From contig JAFYXW010000002.1 in the NCBI GenBank assembly GCA_017557865.1, forward strand, positions 1-64,000: a stretch of 64,000 nucleotides of DNA, in the 5' to 3' direction. This DNA is from Candidatus Saccharimonadota bacterium. Its GTDB lineage: Bacteria; Patescibacteriota; Saccharimonadia; Saccharimonadales; Saccharimonadaceae. Shown piece after piece: positions 9,677 to 44,459 of this stretch. Position 1 is the stretch's first letter; every line of letters begins with the position of its first letter. A program made the position numbers and the translations under genes. Under the pieces are notes generated by a model. That model searched no databases. It saw nothing but the letters and a program-made list of their open reading frames with translations, and was not told the origin of the DNA.

Positions 9677-10031
9677 TGGTGGAGCTGCCGGATACTGCCT
9701 CCGGGTCCGAAAAACCACATGGTTATCATTCTACGTACATAGTCTTCTGTTTTGTCTTGGCATATATAGTAGCGGCAGAAAACGAAACTTGCTAATGCCA
9801 TGGCTAATTTTCGTGCTATTTTTTGCCAATTAAATAGCCTTAATTCCGTTGTATGATAATTCCGATCCTACGGGATCTTGGACCGAAACCAGCCTAGAAA
9901 ATAAAATTAGGCATATGCTGGCATGTAAGCAACATGCGCAGTCTTTGTGTTTTTTACACTTATTAATACTTACGGTATTCAATCGGTACGCTTGATAACT
10001 GTTAATAATTCGTCTAAGCTTTGTCAGCCCC
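9677..10031 (-). ncRNA. ssrA: Transfer-messenger RNA (tmRNA)
   Basis: The 355-nt RNA rescues stalled ribosomes. Its 5' end GGGGCTG pairs with CAGCTCC before an encoded CCA, and pair 3 is G-U, the identity mark for alanyl-tRNA synthetase. The tag frame ends at TAA (9907-9909) and reads KNTKTAHVAYMPAYA; the resume codon cannot be fixed, so the N-terminal end of the tag is uncertain. The Ala-Tyr-Ala end is hydrophobic as expected for protease recognition. The T arm (9688-9704) has a good 5-bp stem but the loop is GGCAGTA instead of the usual TTCRANY. An extended -10 TGCTATAAT (10042-10047) lies just upstream. It is a one-piece tmRNA. Confidence 0.92.
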
Positions 10032-13303: not shown

Positions 13304-13310
13304 GATAATT

Positions 13311-13651
13311 GAGCCGTCGATAAGCCGGGTTCTGTAACTATATATAATATATAGTCGATGGCCATCTATCTAGACGCCGTATTGCTACAGGCGTTCGAGC
13401 GGTGAGCGTGCGTCCTCGAGCCGAGGCTAATAGCACTCCTTGCAACGAGTAGGGTTTGCCTCTGACCTATATCGCTACAGGCCACTGTGAGCTCTTACCT
13501 CACTCTTTTCACCCTTACCGAAGAACTTCGGCGGTATTGTTTCTGTGGTACTTTCCCTATCCTTGCGGACGGTCGCTGTTAGCGACTACCCTGCTCTATG
13601 TTGCCCGGACTTTCCTCTTGGAAAACCAAGCGGCCATCTTTCAGGCTCCCC
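13311..13651 (-). ncRNA. rnpB: RNase P RNA
   Basis: The catalytic RNA that removes tRNA 5' leaders. Conserved blocks read on the minus strand: GAGGAAAGTCCGGGC near the 5' end (CR I) and AGAACCCGGCTTATCG at the 3' end (CR V). The ends pair as GAGCC with GGCTC (helix P1), giving about 341 nt. A -10 TACAAT starts one base after the TGA stop of the preceding Nudix/RNase H gene, so the -35 lies inside that gene and rnpB can be read both alone and by read-through. Ends are accurate to a few bases. Confidence 0.95.
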
Positions 13652-44233: not shown

Positions 44234-44252
44234 GTTGGCTCCTTTTATTATT

Positions 44253-44413
44253 AAAAAATCCAATGCTACTGCATTGGAACTCCTAGGAGCGGTACCATCC
44301 AATTTCCGATAATTCGGCCCTTAATTCGTCTCTTACGCGGATTCACGAGCGGTTCTAATCGTTTCCTTTCTTCCGCCGGCTCGCAGTTGATAGCTGCTAA
44401 TAACGCCTTTATT
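44253..44413 (-). promoter_or_regulatory. T-box leader of ileS
   Basis: A tRNA-sensing leader. The minus strand carries the T-box sequence TTGGATGGTACCGC (about 44289-44302), which forms the antiterminator, overlapping a terminator hairpin CCAATGC/GCATTGG followed by six T (44253-44277). A candidate Ile specifier ATC is at 44389-44391, close to small stems GCTAATAA/TTATTAGC and CGAG/CTCG. Uncharged tRNA-Ile should bind and allow read-through into ileS. The promoter -10 TATACT is at 44420-44425. Stem I looks short, as in the actinobacterial ileS class, but a true terminator is present. Confidence 0.88.
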
Positions 44414-44459
44414 AGCTTTAGTATACCACATTCTAGTTTTAAGTAAAATGCTTGTGGTT

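Follow-up and report, generated by a model that had tools for sequence, protein, structure and literature searches.

The window, a 64-kb stretch of a Saccharibacteria genome, carries on its minus strand a gene for isoleucine--tRNA ligase (ileS) preceded by a structured leader (Table 1). Its product is closer to eukaryote-cytosolic and 8c8u-type enzymes than to the 1ffy and 8c9e types. Read 5' to 3', the leader presents a promoter-like site, Stem I, stem II, stem IIA/B, stem III, UUGGAUGGUACCGC, an antiterminator, a terminator, a GGAG and the ATG. The initial annotation had picked out a T-box sequence, an overlapping terminator with six T, an ATC specifier and a promoter, and all of these are in the sequence where it placed them, on the minus strand. 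The promoter match is weak taken alone, because three promoter-like sites occur in 601 bases (both strands) against 1.0 expected from shuffles. The minus strand of the window also holds an RNase P RNA class A gene (13306-13649) and a tmRNA gene (9677-10031).

Table 1. Features of the ileS leader and its gene in the window
Feature	Position	Strand	Evidence or remark
ileS leader region, ~225 bases	between upstream gene end 44460 and ATG 44233	minus	
T-box element	44253-44425	minus	5' of ileS
Promoter-like TTTACT-16-TATACT, TG preceding the second hexamer	44420..44447 (TATACT 44425-44420)	minus	sequence
Ultrashort Stem I: GGC/GCC base, bulged kink-turn-like part, GCAG/CUGC helix	44378..44407	minus	covariation
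Specifier AUC (isoleucine) in apical loop CUAUCAA, A directly after	44389..44391	minus	invariant in 34/34 leaders
Stem II with S-turn-like GAAGAA / UUAGAA	44349..44376	minus	two-sided changes in 3/4 pairs
Stem IIA/B pseudoknot region	44329..44347	minus	100% of cells paired; almost invariant, little covariation
Stem III between AAGGG and AA (RRRxG-stem III-AA motif)	44306..44317	minus	two-sided changes in 3/4 pairs
Antiterminator, helices A1 and A2	44274..44302	minus	Rfam match and alignment
Putative intrinsic terminator UCCAAUGC AGUA GCAUUGGA U6	44253..44278 (stem 44278-44259, six T 44258-44253)	minus	
Shine-Dalgarno-like GGAG	44239..44242	minus	sequence; not within the terminator stem
ileS, isoleucine--tRNA ligase, 986 aa	41273..44233	minus	TIGR00392, 740.7 bits (cut-off 621.4)

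Stem I extends over only 30 bases in the window, and the long Stem I with an interdigitated T-loop tip that marks class I T-boxes is absent. As in class III (the classes are defined in the available part of PMC10482949), Stem I is short, bears the specifier in its apical loop, has no elbow-binding tip and is followed by a stem II. The specifier loop has seven bases when only standard pairs are counted, against 5-6 in that part of PMC10482949, and the kink-turn position holds U.A where a standard kink-turn has tandem G.A. The AAGGG before stem III and the AA after it fit the motif described in the accessible sections of PMC7583486. The T-box bulge UGGUACC (44297-44291; UGGUACCGC begins at 44297) agrees with UGGNACC and sits between A1 and A2, with A2 carrying a basal G-U pair that recurs in 32 of 34 leaders. 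The stretch UUCCAA is common to the 5' arm of the terminator and the 3' strand of A1; in the same sections of PMC7583486 the terminator 5' strand consists of the 3' strands of A1 and A2. Another 8-bp hairpin (GCUAAUAA/UUAUUAGC, 44416-44396) would be a competitor of Stem I. It was rejected on inspection by eye: the aligned relatives do not preserve its 3' arm, and the transcript probably begins at its 5' arm or downstream of it.

The Rfam T-box model RF00230 matched the leader over the full model length (44412-44272; 39.7 bits, E 2.4e-6), the sole match with E<=1 in the 6001 bases searched, though below the curated cut-off of 93 bits. This cut-off misses the ultrashort class, because an actinobacterial ileS T-box from Tsukamurella (L329) scores only 31.9 bits with the same model. 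Elsewhere in the genome RF00230 gave one more, weak match (12.1 bits, E 0.85), which looks like chance. We built a model, R1, from 34 leaders, the window included; over the 64 kb it gave 172.1 bits at the leader, and its next best match had an E of 8.7 or worse. The minimum free energy (MFE) of the leader is ordinary (z -0.64; 46 of 200 shuffles as low), so the evidence lies in the conserved pattern and the covariation and not in stability.

The pattern was assessed on the alignment of the 34 Saccharibacteria ileS leaders, with the structure (30 pairs, 1020 pair cells) drawn from the window. Pairing holds in 99.7% of the cells (93.8% in shuffles), and 13 of the 30 pairs show two-sided changes against 7.0 in shuffles, a number that none of the 500 shuffles reached. 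The covariation score is 0.285 (0.158 in shuffles). Controls in which the structure was slid along the alignment paired in 32-39% of cells; these controls lean toward the drawn structure, because it was taken from one row of the alignment. Further pair types showed no excess over shuffles (233/500). Most changes fall in Stem I, stem II and stem III: the two helices of Stem I are paired in 99.0 and 100% of cells, with two-sided changes in five of their seven pairs. Stem IIA/B and A1 hardly vary, and are thus untouched by the covariation test. In ungapped columns only, identity to 23 relatives is 0.81-0.92 in the leader, 0.65-0.80 in the upstream DNA and 0.72-0.81 in the coding sequence. One pair of relatives (L025 and L094) shares 99% identity in the leader but only 79% in the second part of ileS, a hint that leader and gene parts have been swapped inside the genus.

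The initial annotation had named two observations as counter-evidence, a missing T-box model match and stems not conserved in relatives. Neither was borne out, although the match scores under the Rfam cut-off. Its reading of a T-box with an isoleucine specifier controlling ileS agrees with the RF00230 match, the AUC and the TIGR00392 assignment of the gene. One may still ask whether an ordinary terminator of the upstream gene merely resembles a T-box by chance. The unremarkable MFE would fit, but the Rfam E-value, the covariation and the link to ileS in 66 of 70 leaders speak against it, and conservation refutes it; its probability is negligible. Judged from its sequence, the window leader is a genuine T-box of ileS.

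The genome encodes a tRNA-Ile(GAU), with A73 and the 3' end ACCA, that is complementary to the AUC of Stem I and, through its ACCA end, to the UGGU of the bulge. Specifier, target gene and tRNA therefore match. A73 was found in tRNA-Ile from all 12 genomes of relatives compared, and the T-box base that opposes it is U in eight and A or C in four, these four having been chosen as odd. Because A73 is constant while the T-box base varies (4/12), this pair is not always present and does not covary. A pattern search did not recover tRNA-Ile in G075, G148, G244 and G072, and a strict discriminator pattern gave zero matches in 20 genomes. Sequence elements, conservation, covariation, the matching tRNA and the target gene are direct observations of this analysis.

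The free terminator stem (-10.7 kcal/mol) outweighs the free antiterminator (-5.1 kcal/mol), so the default state should be off, with uncharged tRNA needed to hold the antiterminator. We propose that the nascent leader would offer AUC in the Stem I loop to tRNA-Ile(GAU), and that stem II would clamp the codon-anticodon pair. With uncharged tRNA, the free ACCA end would pair with UGGU in the bulge, A1/A2 would be stabilized and the polymerase would read into ileS. If the tRNA is charged with isoleucine or missing, the UUCCAA strand would quit A1, the stronger terminator would form and transcription would stop at U6. Here tRNA binding, the sensing of charging and termination are carried over by analogy from T-boxes that have been studied. 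Very probably the element belongs to the class III T-box riboswitches, those with an ultrashort Stem I, and attenuates ileS transcription. Points that weigh against this reading are the Rfam score below the cut-off, the ordinary MFE, the weak promoter, the U.A kink-turn, a Stem I that does not grip the elbow, the variable discriminator pair and the scant variation of IIA/B and A1.

The closest described systems are the class III ileS T-boxes of actinobacteria (Nocardia farcinica, Mycobacterium, Tsukamurella). Like the window, these have a Stem I lacking the elbow-binding part, an isoleucine specifier in the apical loop, a stem II with S-turn, IIA/B, stem III, the T-box and ileS as target. The Tsukamurella leader matches R1 (32.2 bits, E 3.2e-7) and its Stem I, GC-GUUGAU-CCGG-CCAUCA-CCGG-GGAGC, follows the same plan, so the ultrashort design is common to actinobacteria and the window, as the initial annotation had supposed when it likened the short Stem I to the actinobacterial ileS type. 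The two differ in output: the Tsukamurella leader has no U-run and actinobacterial class III elements act on translation (PMC7583486 and PMC10482949, as far as their available text goes), whereas the window carries a predicted transcription terminator with U6. In that respect it resembles class I transcriptional T-boxes (Bacillus tyrS type), in which the A1 3' strand is likewise common to antiterminator and terminator and a U-run follows. Unlike class I, it has neither a long Stem I nor an elbow-binding tip, and its Rfam score falls short of the cut-off; a class I example from Acetoanaerobium (L330) reaches 139.7 bits with RF00230.

An actinobacterial kind of control, with the T-box acting on translation and the hairpin before U6 no working terminator, deserves weighing, since this type of Stem I is known from translational ileS T-boxes. 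Four relatives (L012, by eye, L021, L198 and L249) also carry a Shine-Dalgarno-like GGCGGGAG in the corresponding helix, within the 3' arm of the terminator right before the ATG. Because GGCGGGAG lies in that arm, the hairpin of these four would hide the ribosome site; U5 follows the arm in three of the four, so termination may still occur there, and the group may mark a transition from control of transcription towards control of translation. In the class III examples described in the accessible parts of the sources, the Shine-Dalgarno site is sequestered. The window GGAG, however, lies outside the hairpin, 10 bases past the U-run, the hairpin is followed by six T, and every one of the 34 aligned leaders retains a run of five or more U. 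Translational control of the window gene is very unlikely on these grounds, and the transcriptional control favoured in the initial annotation is consistent with a terminator stem with U6 and a GGAG outside that stem.

The T-box is widespread. Among 99 near genomes, 22 match RF00230 at E<=0.01 and none exceeds the cut-off. R1 recovered the element in 246 of 392 Saccharimonadia genomes, covering 106 of the 150 genera sampled (E<=0.01). In a sample of the phylum it matched 79 of 379 genomes at E<=1e-4, 47 of them (hand count) outside Saccharimonadia, and RF00230 matched 126 of the 379 at E<=1e-3, 13 over the cut-off and with up to five places per genome. Further T-boxes (L161-L190), most with a longer match and some over the Rfam cut-off, occur in many CPR genomes; several precede genes that by eye are argG-like, proS-like or argS-like. 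For 66 of 70 class-wide R1 leaders, ileS lies in the fetched downstream stretch, sometimes after another gene; the four others are L194, L195, L199 and L213. The AUC pattern is present in 68 of the 70, the two misses being L248, in which AUC is seen by eye, and the remnant L051 described below. In nine of the 70, IleS is just 32-41% identical to that of the window; for the three checked, the best family is TIGR00392 (ileS), at scores under its cut-off for these partial proteins.

We placed these loci on an ileS tree made by a quick method, with 10 proteins of other CPR classes as the root. Its 109 rows omit 36 of 145 proteins (copies, a distant IleS type and rows without T-box removed by thinning); no usable protein had come from 31 of 176 loci, and long branches were flagged among the outgroup rows. 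T-box leaders occupy deep branches, and the window falls among Saccharibacteria. The initial annotation had left two origins open, ancient presence and transfer from a Gram-positive host. A recent acquisition of T-box and ileS from an actinobacterial or other Gram-positive host could account for the ultrashort Stem I shared with actinobacterial ileS leaders (one example) and for the patchy presence in the window's genus (28 of 80 ileS loci). Against it stand the occurrence in 106 of 150 genera of the class and 47 sampled genomes outside it, the place of the window among Saccharibacteria in the tree, and the 37.9% protein identity of the actinobacterial match among plasmid records. Such a breadth across genera makes recent transfer highly improbable. 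Ancient presence is favoured: Saccharimonadia have passed the T-box on by descent, and the window's genus has often lost it. An ancient transfer between Saccharibacteria and actinobacteria may have occurred in either direction, the actinobacterial comparison being a single leader.

The loss is seen at the 80 near ileS loci, where the T-box motif is upstream in 28 and missing in 52. R1 found no match at E<=0.01 at the 52, save in L051. In 39 of these 52 (within L024-L103), a hexamer resembling TATAAT stands 4-10 bases ahead of the ileS ATG, a pattern suggestive of leaderless messages. Each of the 28 T-box loci has a Shine-Dalgarno-like site, and leaderless-like loci are absent from this group. 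On the ileS tree, loci with and without the T-box are intermingled, with 17 changes for 'none' among the 109 rows. At 4448-4510 of L051 lies a decayed T-box: what remains is a Stem I that lacks AUC, together with the 5' half of stem II, and the purine-rich stem II strand AAGAAAGGGAG occupies the Shine-Dalgarno place directly before ileS. With 52 of 80 ileS loci of near relatives lacking the T-box and one of these keeping a remnant, the window element might itself be decaying, its function gone. Yet its helices, specifier and terminator are all intact and conservation is higher in the leader than around it, and we regard decay as a remote prospect.

The relatives also differ in how the terminator is built. 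We classified leaders by the best RNA duplex of the arm preceding the U-run; of 103 entered, L012 (no U-run) and L051 (no T-box) were dropped, leaving 101. The pairing arm lies upstream of the T-box in 47 of the 101 (class assigned by hand), and for most leaders of the window's genus that arm is the A1 3' strand. L022, L224 and L237 have an upstream arm too, yet are outside the 47; L024, L025, L077, L090, L094, L095 and L101 have their best duplex upstream, but the alignment shows pairing of the A1 strand as well, and we counted these seven as canonical; L004, L006, L017, L023, L219, L221 and L248 have no clear class. Of the 47 arms, 43 overlap stem III, with five or more of their bases also paired there. 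In this arrangement, seen in L210, L204, L205 and about 40 further leaders of Saccharimonadia, stem III lends its 3' strand to the terminator as the predicted 5' arm, and the antiterminator lies within the terminator loop. L210 and L204 share Stem I, stem II, specifier and target gene with the window, which instead uses the A1 3' strand. The 47 upstream arms pair with their own partners at a mean of -14.9 kcal/mol against -4.1 when shuffled, the own pairing being better in 47 of 47. Columns of the three strands change together (A-U-A, G-C-G, U-A-U and C-G-C) in a table that includes only cells with both pairs predicted and whose shuffles preserve only single-base composition. On the ileS tree the stem III type occupies deep branches with the window's type nested inside (SH-aLRT 99 and 94 at key forks). 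This predicted stem III exchange is the more surprising part of the analysis, and it is absent from the window itself.

Outside Saccharimonadia we fetched 21 R1-type leaders from other CPR classes and read their specifiers by eye. Six (L296, L303, L306, L319, L320 and L326) have GUC in the loop before valS, L327 has ACC before thrS and L322 has AAC, the gene behind it scoring as an aspartate--tRNA(Asn) ligase. The specifier of these eight leaders thus fits the gene they precede, which favours the T-box reading of the window. L324 precedes aspS and has no clear specifier, and L317 precedes a protein without family match. The terminator arm is upstream in 12 of the 21 (weak in L322), another arm is used in eight and L301 has none.

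Taken jointly, these data may mean that CPR bacteria hold an old and diverse ultrashort T-box branch acting on transcription. In its common Saccharimonadia form, stem III itself would be the antiterminator and share its 3' strand with the terminator, whose loop would contain the folded tRNA-end-binding element. From this form the window's genus would have changed to the textbook one, a few relatives would have moved to a Shine-Dalgarno-covering hairpin, and the same short design would read tRNA-Val, tRNA-Thr and tRNA-Asn outside the class. We judge this combined reading to have an even chance of being right.

The literature searched describes no T-box in Saccharibacteria, the Candidate Phyla Radiation or Patescibacteria, and the word 'T-box' occurs 0 times in the available text of two riboswitch-matching papers (PMC11665869 and PMC4508563). 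TBDB applied its class II model to actinobacteria and to class I matches with a truncated Stem I, according to the accessible part of PMC7778990. As far as the available portions of the reviews PMC7583486 and PMC10482949 extend, an ultrashort Stem I of actinobacterial type joined to a predicted transcription terminator is a variant absent from them. In the former, transcriptional T-boxes generally require a long Stem I gripping the tRNA elbow, for which a kinetic reason is given, and the Stem I of translational T-boxes is mostly intermediate or ultrashort. Many compact terminator-bearing leaders without an elbow grip make this rule directly testable, and natural losses within one genus are available for comparison. 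These small, host-dependent bacteria gain a predicted sensor of amino-acid supply, present in 106 of 150 Saccharimonadia genera. If the combined reading is true, one clade displays how T-box output changes.
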